Assembly (NCBI GenBank): GCA_016844465.1
Contig: JAERMO010000003.1
Location: 1 to 32,399, forward strand
From: Nitrosarchaeum sp.
Lineage (GTDB): Archaea; Thermoproteota; Nitrososphaeria; Nitrososphaerales; Nitrosopumilaceae
DNA length: 32,399 nt
Reading direction: 5' to 3'
Below the pieces are notes generated by a model, which worked only from the letters and a program-made list of their open reading frames with translations, was not told the origin of the DNA and did not search any database. Shown piece after piece: positions 2-7,814 of this stretch. How positions within the stretch are numbered: position 1 is the first letter of the stretch; every line of letters begins with the position of its first letter. Position numbers and translations under genes: made by a program.

Positions 2-115
2 ATTTTAGATTATTCGAGAGGATATCAAAACAGCGTGGTTTCTCTGTATTCATCTACCATACCATACACAATTATGGTATTAGTAGTCGTTGTATGCGCT
101 ACTTTGTTTCTATAG
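2..115 (+). CDS. C-terminal end of a membrane protein (partial, enters from the left edge)
   Basis: Frame 2 is open from the window edge to a TAG at 113-115 and encodes 37 residues. The last 18 or so form a hydrophobic helix (IPYTIMVLVVVVCATLFL), as expected for a C-terminal membrane anchor. The other two frames read less like protein; one stops almost at once. The gene would begin outside the window, so no start or function can be given. It overlaps the 3' end of the convergent nuclease-like gene by 17 nt. Confidence 0.4.
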   Translation: MLDYSRGYQNSVVSLYSSTIPYTIMVLVVVVCATLFL

Positions 116-734
116 TTTTCATTTGGTCAAGATACCCATAAAATTCATCTATAAACGATGAAAATTGAAAAATTGGAACTATAGGCACACGGTTGATAAA
201 ATCCAATTTGTCTTGATATAAAGTCACAATTACAGGTACGGCTATCGCACCTTGAGTTTTTAAGACATAGTGCTTTGTTCTTTCAATTTGTTTTTTTACT
301 GCAGATGTTAATGTAGAATAACTGTAACGTTTCCAATGTTTACAGTCAATTAACATGGCAATGCCCAATCGTATCCCAATAACATCAATTTCCATTCGAG
401 GTTTGGTGAGAATTAGATTTTTTATAACTGCAAAATCTTTTGAAAATAACATTTCGGCGACCAATCCTTCAAAGTTTTTCCAGTTAAGCGCAATTGCAAT
501 TTCATCTATCGGACTACCATTTTTTATTAAGTCAATTGCAGCTTTCAATTTATCACCATCTTCAAAATAATATTTGGTTTCTTGTTTTTTTCCTATTCCA
601 TTTTTTATACATCCATCCAGAATTTTTTGAGAGTTAACATTATTTATTTTTGTAATCATTGAAAAATCGTTAACAGATATACCACCAGGAACCATCCCAG
701 ATAATCGCGATAACATGTTTTGATTAAATGTCAT
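99..734 (-). CDS. PD-(D/E)XK nuclease-like protein
   Basis: The ORF track starts at a TTG (752). I prefer the ATG at 734 (211 aa), which has a TATA-like CTATATTG about 27 nt upstream. The N-terminal ~85 residues look like a winged-helix DNA-binding region. The C-terminal half carries a restriction-endonuclease-like core: a helix with Glu (NFEGLVAEML), then MEIDVIGI, then MLIDCKHW. This matches the E...D...DxK pattern of Mrr-like PD-(D/E)XK nucleases. The residues after it (LTSAVKKQIERT) fit the following helix. No methyltransferase or other restriction subunit is adjacent, so a stand-alone DNA repair or defence nuclease is an inference. The substrate is unknown. Confidence 0.65.
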   Translation of the reverse strand: MTFNQNMLSRLSGMVPGGISVNDFSMITKINNVNSQKILDGCIKNGIGKKQETKYYFEDGDKLKAAIDLIKNGSPIDEIAIALNWKNFEGLVAEMLFSKDFAVIKNLILTKPRMEIDVIGIRLGIAMLIDCKHWKRYSYSTLTSAVKKQIERTKHYVLKTQGAIAVPVIVTLYQDKLDFINRVPIVPIFQFSSFIDEFYGYLDQMKTIETK

Positions 735-849
735 ATTGGGTTTTGTTAACAATTAATACAATATAGATTTCAGGAGACATAACCAAAAGATTATTCAGAA
801 ATAGTTTATAATTAAAATAGACATAATTAATATCGCTCGTTATTCAAAT

Positions 850-1236
850 TTAAGGTCTCACGTCAGGTAACATTGTGAATGCCTTATTCACTTCATGGAT
901 TATATCTTGAACGTTAGCTTCACGATCTGCAGAGATTAAAACCAAGTAATTCCTTGTAGGGATACTAATCAAAACGATTTTTTTTCTTTGAGATACAATA
1001 TAGTCTATAGGACCTAACTTTTTATCAAAATCTTTTCTCATTAAATACTCAAAAGTTAGCTGGACATACATCATACGATCTTCCTTATCCTCAAGATACG
1101 AAATTATTCCTTCTTTAAAACCGCCAGCTATCTTATTTCCCATATTGTTCAAAACCCCCACAAACCGAATTTTGGGTAAAGATAGTACTTTATTGCAAGA
1201 ATTTTCTAATGATTCAATTTCAGCTTTGGATGTCAT
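850..1236 (-). CDS. DUF6659-like small protein, possible roadblock/profilin-type fold
   Basis: This 128-aa soluble protein has an ATG start and a TATA-like CTTTTTATG about 30 nt upstream. The core reads KIRFVGVLNNMGNKIAGG, then a regulatory-looking acidic stretch, then strands KKIVLISIPTRNYLVLISAD. That alternation resembles roadblock/LC7 or profilin-like sensory folds. I associate the sequence with a thaumarchaeal family annotated DUF6659, from memory and without a search. No catalytic residues are evident. It is monocistronic between two unrelated genes. A role in signalling or as a small-GTPase accessory protein would be speculation. Confidence 0.6.
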   Translation of the reverse strand: MTSKAEIESLENSCNKVLSLPKIRFVGVLNNMGNKIAGGFKEGIISYLEDKEDRMMYVQLTFEYLMRKDFDKKLGPIDYIVSQRKKIVLISIPTRNYLVLISADREANVQDIIHEVNKAFTMLPDVRP

Positions 1237-1509: not shown

Positions 1510-3978
1510 ATGAAATTATTGCTAGTGATCATACTAGCTCTTTCAATTGTAACTTTAATGTATAATTATTCTTTTGCAGAAAAAAGTGTATTTTTTGATT
1601 CAGTAAAATTCACTCAATATTTAGATGAGAACACAGCACTTGAAGAAGTAAGAAATGGGAATTTGGACATCTATTACGAAAGGATATCATCAGATAGATT
1701 AGAAGACCAAAAATCAAGAGAGGGGTTAAAAGTATTTGATTCAGCCGGTGGATCATACAGCATTCTAGTAAATCCAGCTGAATCAGATAAATTTAATCCA
1801 TTTTCAATTAAATCTGTCAGATTTGCATTAAATTATTTAGTAGATAGAAAATTAATTGTTAATGAATTAATGGGAGGATACGGCGCACCAATGATCTCAT
1901 ATTATGGTCCTTCAGATCCCGAATACCTCACCATAATAAAGCAGCTAGAGACATTCAACTTTAGGTACGATCCATCATTTGCAGAAGAAATGATTTCAAA
2001 TGCATTAAAAGAAAAAGGGGCAACAAAAGAAAATGGCAAGTGGGAGATTAACCACAATCCAATTGAAGTTACAATTTTTATTCGAAGTGATGATCCTGTA
2101 AGAAAATCAATCGGTGAAATTTTAGCTTCTGAATTACAAAAAATTGGATTTACTGTAAAAAAGGATTTTGGAGATTTGAATAAAGCTTTTGTTGTGGTAT
2201 ATGGATCAGATCCAGCAGAAATGAAATGGAATCTATATACAGAAGGTTGGGCAAGATCCGCATTTGTAAAATATGACTCAGTTGGGCTAGCACAGATGTA
2301 TGCTCCATGGTTTTCAAACATGCCAGGATTTAATGATCCGACATATTGGAATTACAAAAATGATACCTTAGATATTAAAACTCAAAAAATTTACTCTGGA
2401 GATTTTCAGTCATCAGAAGAAAGAAGGAATTTGATTAAAGAGTCAATTGCAGATGGAATTAGCGAGTCCGTTAGAATTTTTCTAGCTAGTAAAATTGATC
2501 AGTATGTCACCAATAAGAAAATGGATGGGGTGGTAAATGATCTCGGAGCAGGAGTTTCAGGTAGATTCACTCCAATCAATTCAAGAAATAATGAAGGAGA
2601 GTTGAACATCGGAGTTAAGGAGATCTATCAAGGAGCATGGAATCCAGTAATGGGGTTTAGTGACAAGTATAGTAGACAGATTTGGGGAATAATTTCAGAT
2701 CCAATCACTTTCAAACATCCATTCACAGGAGAAACATTCCCAATTAGAGCAAATTGGAATGTGGAGACGGCAGGATCAAATGAGAAATTAAATGTGTCAG
2801 ATGATGCAATAATGTGGGATCCCGTTGAGCAGCAGTGGAAAAAAATTCCACTAGGCACTCAAGCAACAAGTAAAGTCAGATTTGATTTTAAGTTTAGCAA
2901 TTGGCATAATGGGCAAAAAATGGACATGAATGATATTTTACATTCATTGTATTTTGCAATAGAATGGGGAACACAAACAGATGAGAATGATAAAACATTT
3001 GACACCGAGTTTACTCCCATAGCATCACAAAGTGTTCAAACTATAATTGGAATTGAACCTATTGATGGGGATACAATTGATGTTTATGTGGATTATTGGC
3101 ATTTTGATGAGGGTGAGATTGCAGATTGGGCATCGCTTTGGAGTTCAGTACCTTGGGAAATCACTGCGGCAATGGAACAGGCGGTAATAGATGACAAAGT
3201 TTCCTTTTCAAGATCTGGTGCAACCAGTAAAAATGTCAATTGGCTTTCGCTAATTCTTCCAAATGACGCCCACATCATTCAAAGTTATTTAGATGATTTT
3301 AAAGAAGAAAAGCACATTCCAGAATCATTAAAATTGTTTGAAACAAATTATGATTATTTTGATAGTAGGTATTCCTCATCATCAGAGTGGATTAAAAAAA
3401 ATAATCATGCGGTAATTAGTAATGGGCCATTTTCCCTTAAGGTGTATTCACCAGAAGCAAGAACCATTATTGTCAAAGCTTTTGAGGATAAAACATATCC
3501 TTTCAAGGTAGGACATTGGTCAGATTTTGAAACAACAGAATTTCCAAAGATAATAAATGTAGAAGCTCCAAACAGCATTCAAAAAGGAAACGATTTGGAA
3601 ATAAACATAGAATCATCACATACGGATTCAATTCTTTATTTTTTGATAGGAGGTGATGGGGAATTAGCATCATCGGAATCGATCAAAGTCGAAAAAAATT
3701 CAACTCGAATTAAAATTCCACGGGAAATAACAGAGAAGCTAAACACAGGTGCAAATGATCTAAAAATATTTGCAATTTCAAATTCGGTATTAAAACCAGA
3801 TTATTATTCAACAAGTTTCTTAACGGTTGAAAATGAAGTGTCATTACCTGAAATAACTCAAAAGGACATAGAATTTAATAAAAATAATTCTTTGGAAATT
3901 ATATGGTTTATTGTGCCAGTCATAATCATCAGCATAATTACAATATATGTTAAAAAAAGAAAATCATTAAAGATCTAA
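1510..3978 (+). CDS. Membrane-anchored family 5 (peptide/nickel-type) substrate-binding protein, apparently circularly permuted
   Basis: The protein has 822 aa. A Sec signal peptide (about residues 1-23, ending SFA) leads to an extracytoplasmic protein with one C-terminal helix (about 796-816) followed by KKRKS, so it is held on the cell surface. Hallmarks of SBP_bac_5 proteins are present but in reversed order. First come NTALEEVRNGNLDIYYE, the GGSY strand and VRFALNYLVDR (about 100-115), which normally lie in the second half. Then come NPVMGF, NWHNGQKMDMNDILHS (about 460) and NGPFSLKVYSP (about 640), which normally lie in the first half. A beta-rich stalk (about 680-790) follows. No permease or ATPase gene is adjacent, so the ligand and the partner transporter are unknown. 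The stop codon overlaps that of tsr3, tail to tail. Confidence 0.85.
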   Translation: MKLLLVIILALSIVTLMYNYSFAEKSVFFDSVKFTQYLDENTALEEVRNGNLDIYYERISSDRLEDQKSREGLKVFDSAGGSYSILVNPAESDKFNPFSIKSVRFALNYLVDRKLIVNELMGGYGAPMISYYGPSDPEYLTIIKQLETFNFRYDPSFAEEMISNALKEKGATKENGKWEINHNPIEVTIFIRSDDPVRKSIGEILASELQKIGFTVKKDFGDLNKAFVVVYGSDPAEMKWNLYTEGWARSAFVKYDSVGLAQMYAPWFSNMPGFNDPTYWNYKNDTLDIKTQKIYSGDFQSSEERRNLIKESIADGISESVRIFLASKIDQYVTNKKMDGVVNDLGAGVSGRFTPINSRNNEGELNIGVKEIYQGAWNPVMGFSDKYSRQIWGIISDPITFKHPFTGETFPIRANWNVETAGSNEKLNVSDDAIMWDPVEQQWKKIPLGTQATSKVRFDFKFSNWHNGQKMDMNDILHSLYFAIEWGTQTDENDKTFDTEFTPIASQSVQTIIGIEPIDGDTIDVYVDYWHFDEGEIADWASLWSSVPWEITAAMEQAVIDDKVSFSRSGATSKNVNWLSLILPNDAHIIQSYLDDFKEEKHIPESLKLFETNYDYFDSRYSSSSEWIKKNNHAVISNGPFSLKVYSPEARTIIVKAFEDKTYPFKVGHWSDFETTEFPKIINVEAPNSIQKGNDLEINIESSHTDSILYFLIGGDGELASSESIKVEKNSTRIKIPREITEKLNTGANDLKIFAISNSVLKPDYYSTSFLTVENEVSLPEITQKDIEFNKNNSLEIIWFIVPVIIISIITIYVKKRKSLKI

Positions 3979-4469
3979 TCAGTCAAACCATATTCTTTTA
4001 GAATAACATCGATTTGATCTTCAGATTCTAATTTAGAATATTCATCTAAAAGATTTTGGTTTAATTCATAAAAAGTATGTCCCCATTTGAATTTATCAAG
4101 TATTTCAAGTGCTTCATCTTTAAAACCTAAAATAAATAATGATGCAGATAATGCTTCAGCAGTAGTTAGTTTATTGAATTTTGCGTAATTAACTGGATTG
4201 CCAGCAAGTAAAGGAGGTAATTTTCTTTTGATTCCGTTAAAATTTTTTGAAAATGCTCGTTCAACAAGATTCCACGAGCAATCAATTCCAATTAATGTAT
4301 TTGCCAAGGATTTATCTTTAGGTAAGAGTGTTTTTTCAGAAAAAGGATCTAAAACGATCCCCTTATTTCCTATTTTTTTGATATTTTTTGCAATTCCAAA
4401 TTTTACCATTTTGGCAGCGGTGCATTTTTTTGGATCATCCTGATAAAACATCAAAACATGTAGATTCAA
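3975..4469 (-). CDS. tsr3: Tsr3-type rRNA aminocarboxypropyltransferase
   Basis: The protein has 164 aa, close to the archaeal family length. Tsr3 transfers the 3-amino-3-carboxypropyl group of S-adenosylmethionine to the hypermodified pseudouridine in the decoding-site region of small-subunit rRNA, a late step of 30S maturation. Family signatures are clear: DPKKCTAAKMVKFGIA near the N-terminus (RLI-like domain), then IGIDCSW, LPPLLAGNPVNYAKF, TTAEALSASLFILGF and KFKWGHTFYELN. The ATG start places the DPKKCT motif at residues 12-17, as usual. The gene stands alone; its TAG overlaps the TAA of the convergent binding-protein gene in the sequence CTAA. I see nothing missing. Confidence 0.92.
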   Translation of the reverse strand: MNLHVLMFYQDDPKKCTAAKMVKFGIAKNIKKIGNKGIVLDPFSEKTLLPKDKSLANTLIGIDCSWNLVERAFSKNFNGIKRKLPPLLAGNPVNYAKFNKLTTAEALSASLFILGFKDEALEILDKFKWGHTFYELNQNLLDEYSKLESEDQIDVILKEYGLTD

Positions 4470-4502: not shown

Positions 4503-7500
4503 TTATTCCAATGACTTGTAGTTTATTTTATAATAGAATCTAGATATTTGATCAGCATTTTTGATTATCTCTACATTCCAATTTGAATTAGGTAGAAATC
4601 CATAGGAATCTTCTGGAAGAATATCAAATTTTTCAAGGCGTACATCAGGACCGCTATATCTGACTTTTAGACTAATACCATCTACTGAAACTAAATCGTA
4701 GATTTGTCCAGGTTTTCTAGTGGAATCTTTTACAAAGCAATTTTCCTCAGGACCAATAATGCACATTCCAGATTCAGAAGTAACCCTAAGATTAACATTT
4801 GATTGGTTATCTTTAGTAGTAAGTAATGAACCAGAAATTACTTTGGGCACTACCTGTTTGTCCTGAATAGTTTTTTCATTTGTAATAATGGATATTTTAT
4901 CATCAGGAATTCTGATTACTTTTTCAATAATAGTTGAGGAAGATTCTTCAGGTGTTTTAATTATTGGTTTTTGAACTACATCAAATTGTATAGATTTTAT
5001 TTCAAATCCAGCATCCACCGTAATTTCATATGATCCGAGGCCAGAAGTAGAATTAACTATTTGGATTTGATGTGAAAAAGAACCCGAAGAACTAGGTCTA
5101 ATAGTAGTAACAGGACCCAAATGAACACCACAGAAAAATGATCCACATGTGATCTCAGCATCAGTTTTCTTTATTACACTTACATCAAATTTTTCAAGAT
5201 AAATTAGCTTGTTTGGTTTACCAGATACAATTACAATATCACCGGGATAATATTCAGAATTGTCTGTAGCAAGTAAAAGAGATAGTTTTTCATTGGAATC
5301 ATAAGAGAAATCATTTGTAACACTAAATGTAGATTCAGATTTTTTGTTTGAATATAGTGCCTTTACTTTGTATTCACCAGCATGGAAAACGGTTATAGGT
5401 AATTCAAATGAGCTTTTAAAATTTCCACCTTGATCAGGATAAACTGATGCTTCATGGATTTGTTTGTATGGCGGTTTACCATCAAGCACAAGTATTGTGA
5501 CTCTATCTGGAATTATCAATCCCTCCGAACCCTGTATTCTTTTAATAACATTACCAACAACATTTAATTTTTCTCCAGCTTTGTATAGAGATTTTTCAGT
5601 AGAGACATACAACGGCGTCAGAGATAAAGAGTCATGTTGAGGATCGAAGGAAACTTTGAAGAAAATACTCTCATCGTGAGAAGCAGTTGAAACATTGATT
5701 CTATAAATACCATAATTGGTTGTAGTGATGGAACGATCGTCTAATTTTATTGCCAGAGGTTTTTCAGTAGTGGGTGTAATCCATGACCAAGAAAAATGCT
5801 GGTTATCAATACTAGCACCAAAATTATTTGTACTACCATCAGGTTTTGTAAGAGAAATTGATACAGAATTATCACCAGTTGGGGGAATAAGTCCAGTCAA
5901 TTGAACAATTTCACCTAGACCAAAAACTTGCTTATTCAAAGTAAGTATTGCCCCATCATTTAATTTTAAAGGATCAACAATACCAACAATAATGATTTTT
6001 GTCAGTCCAGCATATTCTGCTTTTATTAGATAGGTTCCCTCAGTAAAAGCAGTTTGTGAGACACTAGTTTGTACTGAAAATCTTCCAGAAGCATCAGGTA
6101 TCGCAGTTAATTCATATGCAATAGTTAAACCATTATTTTGTCTTGTTTTAGCTCCGGGTGGAAGCGCGATAATTTCTAGAGGATTGCCATCTTCACGAGA
6201 TAGTGAAATTTTTACAGGAGATGTTTCAAAGCTTGATCTGCGTTCAGGATTGGCAATAAAACCATTGATCTTCATCGTGTCACCCAAATCATAAATCACC
6301 TTATCAGTTGAAAGTGAAAGAGCGCTAGGATCTGCAACATAATCTCCGGGATTCGTTATAGCATGAATGATTTTTGATGCAGAGCCAACTTCTTTTGAAA
6401 CGTTAATTTTGTAATCACCGAGTCGAGTATAGCTTTCGGGTATTTTGAAGGAATATGCAAAAGAACCATCACCAGCGGTTCTAACTACATCCAAAATTTT
6501 GAATCCAGAGTTACCGCCACCAAGTTCACTTGTTCCAAGTGCAGCATTTTTTGTTTGAGTAATTTCCAAATCCAACGAGCCAACCCAGACATTATTTACC
6601 CTGCCTGTAATCATTACCATTTCTCCCAAGGCATATGCATCTTTATCAGTCCAAAGAGATATCACTTTGTTTTCTTTTATGTCCTGAACCACTTCAAAGA
6701 GAGCATAAGATGATTTGTCAAAATATTCCCCAGTTATTTGATATGTTCCATAAACTGGGTTAACAGTAGTAAGAAAAACACTAGTTAGAAATTTCCCATT
6801 TGTAGGATATAAATTTCCAGTGGAAATAATTTTGCCTTTTGGATCCTTTACCGTAAACTTTAGGCCTTCAAATGGAATTACCTTTGTAGTAAATCCAGTT
6901 ACAGAGATTGTATCTCCAGGAATATATTGCGATTTATCTGTAATGATACTAAGAGCACTTTCTACCTCAATATTTTCTACAATAAGTTCATTTCCTACAG
7001 AGAAACTTGTTTGAGATGCAGCATTGCCATAACTAACTGAAACAGAATAAAGACCTTCATTAATTCCAAGAACTGAATTTAGATTCAAAGTAGTTTTATA
7101 GTTTAAATTAAGATCAGGGTAAAGTGAAATTGTTTTATTAAAATTAGGACCAGATATTGTTACAATTATCTGATCAGAATGAAAATAGGGTTTGACAATG
7201 AATATCTGTTGAGATACATTTCCTTGAATTACAGCTGTTTCACCAAAAAGATAGGAAGACTTGCTGGTGGATACAGATATTGAAACACCAATATCGTCTT
7301 CTGTGATTAATAATTTACCATTTGATGAACCTGCAGTAGAAGTTGAAAATTTCCAATCATCTGATGCATCCAAATCATAACCATCATAGATTCTTTGCCA
7401 AGATGTATAATCATTTTTCATATCAGACAATAAAGGAGTTTTGTCAACAATCACTCCATTTTTGTCCCTTAGTTCAACGAATTCACTTGTATCAGTAAAC

Positions 7501-7814
7501 CAGAGGGTTTGATATGAGTATGTTAAAAATTTTCCAGGTTCAATCACAGTGCCAGGTGGAATGGTCATTGTTTTTTTCATTACGGTGGTAGATGCAATCT
7601 TCCATCCGCCGATATCAATTTTAGAATTAGTAGGATTGTAGAGCTCAACCCATTCTGAAATAGATTTGGCATCATCACCTAATGGATTTGTATCAATTTC
7701 ATTAATTACAACATGACTAGTCAAAACTTGAGCACTTGCATCAGTAGTTAATCCGCCGGTAGTAATAACCAGTACACTAAAAATCAAAATAGAACAAGAG
7801 ATGATGGTTTTCAT
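4503..7814 (-). CDS. Large secreted protein: lamin-tail domain plus seven Ig-like repeats
   Basis: The protein has 1103 aa. The N-terminus is a Sec signal peptide (about 1-28, probable cleavage after ASA). Residues about 32-150 match a lamin-tail domain (VVINEIDTNP, SEWVELYNPT, IDIGGWKI, VIEPGKFLTY, DKNGVIVDKTP). After it, a strand motif of the form L-S-x-x-T-D-K-x-x-Y-x-x-G-[DE] recurs seven times, near residues 178, 290, 383, 497, 621, 733 and 843. The period is about 110, typical of MG2/Ig-like beta-sandwiches in archaeal surface proteins. The ~160-residue C-terminal part is a separate domain. There is no C-terminal membrane helix, so the protein is secreted or held by other surface proteins. 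Adhesion or envelope structure is inferred. No good TATA box lies directly upstream, so it may be co-transcribed with the micro-ORF at 7838-7927. Confidence 0.85.
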   Translation of the reverse strand: MKTIISCSILIFSVLVITTGGLTTDASAQVLTSHVVINEIDTNPLGDDAKSISEWVELYNPTNSKIDIGGWKIASTTVMKKTMTIPPGTVIEPGKFLTYSYQTLWFTDTSEFVELRDKNGVIVDKTPLLSDMKNDYTSWQRIYDGYDLDASDDWKFSTSTAGSSNGKLLITEDDIGVSISVSTSKSSYLFGETAVIQGNVSQQIFIVKPYFHSDQIIVTISGPNFNKTISLYPDLNLNYKTTLNLNSVLGINEGLYSVSVSYGNAASQTSFSVGNELIVENIEVESALSIITDKSQYIPGDTISVTGFTTKVIPFEGLKFTVKDPKGKIISTGNLYPTNGKFLTSVFLTTVNPVYGTYQITGEYFDKSSYALFEVVQDIKENKVISLWTDKDAYALGEMVMITGRVNNVWVGSLDLEITQTKNAALGTSELGGGNSGFKILDVVRTAGDGSFAYSFKIPESYTRLGDYKINVSKEVGSASKIIHAITNPGDYVADPSALSLSTDKVIYDLGDTMKINGFIANPERRSSFETSPVKISLSREDGNPLEIIALPPGAKTRQNNGLTIAYELTAIPDASGRFSVQTSVSQTAFTEGTYLIKAEYAGLTKIIIVGIVDPLKLNDGAILTLNKQVFGLGEIVQLTGLIPPTGDNSVSISLTKPDGSTNNFGASIDNQHFSWSWITPTTEKPLAIKLDDRSITTTNYGIYRINVSTASHDESIFFKVSFDPQHDSLSLTPLYVSTEKSLYKAGEKLNVVGNVIKRIQGSEGLIIPDRVTILVLDGKPPYKQIHEASVYPDQGGNFKSSFELPITVFHAGEYKVKALYSNKKSESTFSVTNDFSYDSNEKLSLLLATDNSEYYPGDIVIVSGKPNKLIYLEKFDVSVIKKTDAEITCGSFFCGVHLGPVTTIRPSSSGSFSHQIQIVNSTSGLGSYEITVDAGFEIKSIQFDVVQKPIIKTPEESSSTIIEKVIRIPDDKISIITNEKTIQDKQVVPKVISGSLLTTKDNQSNVNLRVTSESGMCIIGPEENCFVKDSTRKPGQIYDLVSVDGISLKVRYSGPDVRLEKFDILPEDSYGFLPNSNWNVEIIKNADQISRFYYKINYKSLE

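Follow-up and report, generated by a model that had tools for sequence, protein, structure and literature searches.

The SBP_bac_5 family (Pfam: PF00496) contains binding proteins such as OppA, DppA, NikA, AppA and NikZ, in which the N-lobe canonically precedes the C-lobe, and which are either free in the periplasm or held as N-terminal lipoproteins. A receptor of the Opp/Dpp importers (OppBCDF) is encoded with, or co-occurs with, the permeases OppB and OppC and the ATPases OppD/OppF. The closest solved relative of the protein described here is TkOppA from Thermococcus kodakarensis (7fi3), which has the canonical order. In natural circular permutations a linker connects the ancestral termini, and the chain is opened anew in a loop; such permutations in proteins have been reviewed (PMC3320104). 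In the open-access literature we found no published natural permutation in SBP_bac_5, where absence is not a proof of novelty.

The gene studied here lies in a window (the whole stretch of DNA that was analysed, 32,399 nucleotides) from a Nitrosopumilaceae genome, see Table 1. It is a single uninterrupted open reading frame, and sequence comparisons support that its product is a circularly permuted homologue of SBP_bac_5/OppA. The protein opens with a hydrophobic segment at its N-terminus, continues with a core of ~650 residues and a beta-rich domain, and ends with a hydrophobic helix (residues 792–816) and a basic tail (KKRKSLKI). An earlier note on this DNA had described a C-terminal helix as the anchor and had seen no permease or ATPase beside the gene. 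Both observations hold: the helix is present in the hydropathy profile and in the AlphaFold2 model, and a search of the window detected neither an opp permease gene nor an opp ATPase gene. The beta-rich domain, probably Ig-like in character, has no Pfam match, the sole Pfam match nearby being the membrane-helix segment downstream of it.

Table 1. Features of the permuted receptor gene and its surroundings; coordinates refer to the window unless a locus is named.
Feature	Coordinates	Strand	Evidence
Whole gene: circularly permuted SBP_bac_5/OppA-like protein (supported by sequence), 822 aa	1510..3978	+	intact ORF, Pfam 101.7 bits, TkOppA E = 2e-51 in exchanged order
N-terminal signal-like hydrophobic segment, residues 1-23	1510..1578	+	hydropathy 1.95-2.11; putative signal
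Canonical second half, now first, residues 26-350 (A.EV.NG.LDI ... RFALNYLVDR ... YTEGW)	1585..2559	+	7fi3 319-589, weak extension 662-722; SBP_bac_5 positions 143-349
Junction of old C-terminus and old N-terminus, residues 351-364, SGRFTPINSRNNEG region	2560..2601	+	near-constant lobe spacing in 129 distinct homologues
Canonical first half, now second, residues 365-672 (WNP ... WHNGQKM.MNDI ... SNGPF.L..Y ... YPF)	2602..3525	+	7fi3 18-309; SBP_bac_5 positions 28-139, weak
Beta-rich stalk-like domain, residues about 677-775	3538..3834	+	strands in AlphaFold2 model, good local confidence
C-terminal membrane helix, residues 794-816, then basic tail	3889..3957	+	hydropathy up to 2.48; model helix 794-821; weak COX2_TM match
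Divergent upstream neighbour, DUF6659; outside the system	850..1236	-	Pfam 5.7e-14
Convergent downstream neighbour, Tsr3-like ribosome biogenesis protein; outside the system	3975..4469	-	Pfam Ribo_biogen_C 1.9e-39
OppC insertion, P0004 residues about 40-235	L094:11502-12860		

The SBP_bac_5 profile matches residues 24–250 at its positions 143–349, with 101.7 bits against a cut-off of 32.4. When the halves were scanned apart, residues 27–250 matched positions 146–349 (97.1 bits), and residues 464–660 gave a weak match to positions 28–139 (15.6 bits, below the cut-off). In a single-sequence search against TkOppA (7fi3_A), residues 372–665 align to 18–310 and residues 28–302 to 321–622 (overall E = 2e-51). 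The family profile places residues 372–664 on chain positions 18–309 (174.8 bits, i-E 2.3e-50) and residues 26–269 on 319–589 (140.4 bits, i-E 5.5e-40), while a third segment, residues 299–359 on 662–722, is very weak. These two strong matches and the weak one put both lobes in one chain. The exchange of the two halves, with the second set of motifs first, had been proposed in the earlier note; the matches to TkOppA lie far beyond chance and the residue ranges given for the two sets were right.

As the segments are reversed relative to 7fi3, the canonical chain end runs directly into the chain start at about residues 350–372. The cut itself corresponds to the ten residues between TkOppA 309 and 319, and in the lobe alignment it falls just past the NPxYW-type motif of E. 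coli OppA and NikA. The protein belongs to SBP_bac_5 by its profile match and by the presence of both lobes but departs from the canonical N-lobe-then-C-lobe order, and due to this reversal it is filed as a permuted variant and not as a canonical member. Both halves are homologous to TkOppA over nearly the whole length, and the two proteins share long insertions relative to bacterial OppA; they differ in the order of the halves. Motifs and lobes are also shared with the SBP_bac_5 proteins listed above, overall above the Pfam cut-off; however, compared with these the lobes are larger, the chain order is another one and the anchor is a C-terminal membrane helix.

Colinear homologues exist in 50 of 61 relatives, and some match is found in 208 of 300 genomes across the phylum Thermoproteota, the weakest matches being partial. 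The earlier note had proposed to check whether the homologues share the order. With separate models for the two lobes, the C-lobe comes first in all 129 distinct proteins that contain both, from many Thermoproteota families. The spacing between the two lobe models in these 129 homologues is 22 residues at quartiles 1–3, with a range of 14–30. No extra N- or C-lobe is left over in any of the proteins scanned (129 distinct homologues), and split C-lobe hits are insertions within one lobe. When TkOppA, in canonical order, was used as the query in 200 Thermoproteota genomes, only half-length matches in permuted frames were present among the matches listed. Likewise, none of the matches listed for the genome searches is a member of this subfamily in canonical order. 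The phylum does contain SBP_bac_5 proteins with the canonical order, but these belong to other subfamilies. No permuted relative was found in the plasmid and viral collections. The simplest reading is one single ancient permutation, based on homologues sampled from Thermoproteota genomes and, beyond the phylum, on one Thermococcus structure. It may have proceeded via a duplication that was later trimmed, or via fission and subsequent fusion.

In relatives, the orthologues usually head oppABCDF-like operons with the order SBP-OppB-OppC-(OppD-OppF). OppB lies directly downstream of the receptor on the same strand in 41 of the 63 wide loci, OppC follows OppB in 38 of those 41, and at least one OppD/F ATPase is present in 30. 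In the tree, the window protein nests among the Nitrosopumilaceae orthologues, and nearby branches include receptors that still adjoin OppB/OppC, so that the missing neighbours look like a secondary loss of linkage. Most Nitrosopumilaceae genomes contain one PF00496 gene, one OppB, one OppC and two oligo_HPY ATPases. In the host genome, OppB is on contig C93, the two Opp-type ATPases are on C89 and C116, and OppC is on C106, where it is frame-shifted or broken in the assembly. A tandem PF00528 pair on contig C159 of the same genome was considered as DppBC and rejected, as it belongs to a phosphate Pst system with PhoU.

Since the partner genes are unlinked in the window lineage, the partnership there rests on co-occurrence. 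Of the relatives with a completeness of 90% or more, 41 have the receptor and 40 of these also have a close OppB; none of the 6 without the receptor has one (Fisher p = 6.5e-7, a value that is too small because the genomes share ancestry and are not independent). One genome that is 99% complete (G031) has the receptor, and neither OppB nor OppC was detected in it. In a genus with genomes of 0.8 Mb (g5), the receptor is absent in all three sampled (G021, G346 and G358), and G021 is also without OppB, OppC and Opp-type ATPases. The association of the receptor with OppB, OppC and OppD/F is thus found through the operons of relatives and through co-occurrence in the family.

We suggest that the protein is, in all likelihood, the membrane-anchored extracytoplasmic receptor of an Opp/Dpp-type ABC importer, in which the SBP_bac_5 fold is circularly permuted and whose operon is dispersed in the window lineage. 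The new chain would start just past the NPxYW loop of the classic protein, continue through the classic second half, a short linker between the old ends and the classic first half, and end with the beta-rich stalk and the C-terminal membrane helix. A ligand would be captured between the two lobes, which would close around it; the anchored receptor would then dock on OppB/OppC, and OppD/OppF would drive the ATP-dependent import of the ligand. Dispersal of the operon in the window lineage would mean that linkage was lost and function kept. As in known Opp/Dpp importers, OppB, OppC and oligo_HPY ATPases are encoded with or alongside the permuted receptor; the differences are the dispersed genes of Nitrosopumilaceae and a partner OppC with an additional, putatively extracytoplasmic segment of ~165–200 aa, discussed below.

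The ligands are most likely short peptides, as TkOppA was crystallised with a pentapeptide and the literature credits ammonia-oxidising archaea with the equipment to take up oligo- and dipeptides (PMC6790972). That the transporter role is the same and the ligand another one, e.g. nickel or another metal chelate as in NikA/NikZ, is possible, although we consider it rather unlikely. NikZ and NikA are the second-best structural matches, NikA-like metal-chelate receptors are almost equal in C-lobe similarity, and the NCBIfam matches are nickel receptors, far below the cut-off. Further, the Asp region of E. coli OppA, which we take to anchor the amino end of the peptide, aligns to no Asp in the window protein. 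However, this Asp is likewise missing in peptide-bound TkOppA, by far the closest solved relative.

The earlier note had instead favoured a sensor or scavenger over a transporter part, that is, a permuted, tethered binding protein that acts without an ABC transporter. The window without a permease or ATPase and the C-terminal anchor agree with this, as does a paralogue inside a 2079-aa protein that also has FG-GAP and type-I PBP domains. However, orthologues stand at the head of opp operons across the phylum, and the family of the window protein has retained the transporter genes, whose presence co-varies with that of the receptor. Further, an anchor is compatible with transport, and the operon-linked relatives also reach well beyond the second lobe. 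We therefore hold this role to be improbable and retain the importer receptor as the preferred reading.

AlphaFold2 models were obtained for the whole protein (pLDDT 81.6, pTM 0.76) and for the core (pLDDT 83.6, pTM 0.75), both from a shallow alignment. In a Foldseek search with the model, TkOppA with its bound pentapeptide is the top match and leads the next ones, NikZ, AppA and NikA, by a wide margin. Each known structure is aligned over roughly half, as expected when an aligner that keeps chain order meets a permuted fold, and a whole-core match in exchanged order is absent among the structure matches listed by Foldseek. The model is confident and its best matches are SBP_bac_5 proteins throughout, aligned over half in chain order; a two-lobed Venus-flytrap fold is predicted. 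Neither a normal SBP topology in one half nor two independent half-domains was seen in these comparisons, where the fold is itself inferred and the alignments are chain-ordered. It is very unlikely that the halves do not make up one monomeric binding protein, but fold separately or swap with a partner molecule. The half coverage of any known structure by Foldseek could be read in this way; however, it is what a permutation gives under chain-ordered alignment, one SBP fold needs both halves, the junction spacing is near-constant in 129 proteins and the global pTM is 0.75–0.76. Finally, an artefact of the gene model or the assembly (a chimeric contig or fused fragments of tandem genes), which the fragmented and slightly contaminated host assembly could suggest, is refuted by the many independent genomes, several of which consist of a single contig, that contain colinear full-length orthologues. 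The host assembly is a Nitrosopumilaceae genome of 1.56 Mb, 77% complete, with 73–78% identity to relatives labelled Nitrosarchaeum.

In 37 of 38 operons with a permuted receptor, OppC has a length of 451–658 aa, compared with 262–293 aa for canonical OppC/NikC of the same phylum and about 300 aa for E. coli OppC. The extra stretch of about 165–200 aa is located after the first membrane helix and before the permease core, and from the topology of known OppC it is predicted to be extracytoplasmic. Canonical OppC of the phylum lacks this stretch. It matches no Pfam family, and PDB matches of these proteins are confined to the permease core. Of 50 relatives that encode the receptor, 49 also have a long OppC, in some cases as fragments; of 11 that lack the receptor, 2 have one, and both of these genomes are less than 85% complete (Fisher p = 3e-8). 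This relationship between the OppC insertion and the permuted receptor is a correlation only. It can tentatively be speculated that, phylum-wide, the receptor became permuted and C-terminally tethered in concert with the gain of an extracytoplasmic OppC domain, and that this domain, and not diffusion, brings the tethered receptor to the permease.

The results point to a circular permutation that arose naturally within a large class of transport receptors and is fixed across a whole archaeal phylum, and suggest that chain order in the SBP_bac_5 fold is free to change while the role stays. The permuted receptors could serve as a natural control in folding and hinge studies. Due to the permuted order, profile tools give such proteins half-length matches and weak names. 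For ammonia-oxidising archaea, what is usually the sole SBP_bac_5 receptor and its scattered partners are now singled out, so that organic-nitrogen uptake can be tested gene by gene.

Some further observations concern the surroundings of the gene. A NERD/Mrr-like putative nuclease (window 99–752, minus strand) is better conserved beside the receptor gene than any other neighbour in Nitrosopumilaceae; the two genes are usually divergent and no more than about 100 bases apart. In the window, the DUF6659 gene sits between the two. On the other side, a 1103-aa surface protein with a lamin-tail (LTD) domain and repeated MG2 domains (window 4503–7814, minus strand) is kept beside Tsr3 and the receptor in Nitrosopumilus-type genomes. 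A second match in the host assembly, on contig C56 (L072), was rejected as a paralogue: it covers the locus once more, with Tsr3, the LTD/MG2 protein and the receptor end at about 70% identity to the window, and the contig probably stems from another strain or species whose DNA is also in the assembly. A receptor locus in a record titled Gammaproteobacteria bacterium BBSC-SA02 (L061) groups with ammonia-oxidising archaea and is probably a contamination of that assembly.

The 2079-aa protein mentioned above is encoded on contig C104 of another Nitrosopumilaceae genome, G030 (L107:6320–12556, minus strand). In addition to a permuted SBP_bac_5 pair it carries two type-I periplasmic-binding domains, FG-GAP repeats and an SdrD-like domain, and it resembles a surface receptor for several ligands. 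A paralogous permuted lobe pair fused into such a giant protein implies that the fold is usable elsewhere. A region in a further genome (G350:C3:62649–65672) matches the SBP_bac_5 part and the first type-I PBP part of this protein.
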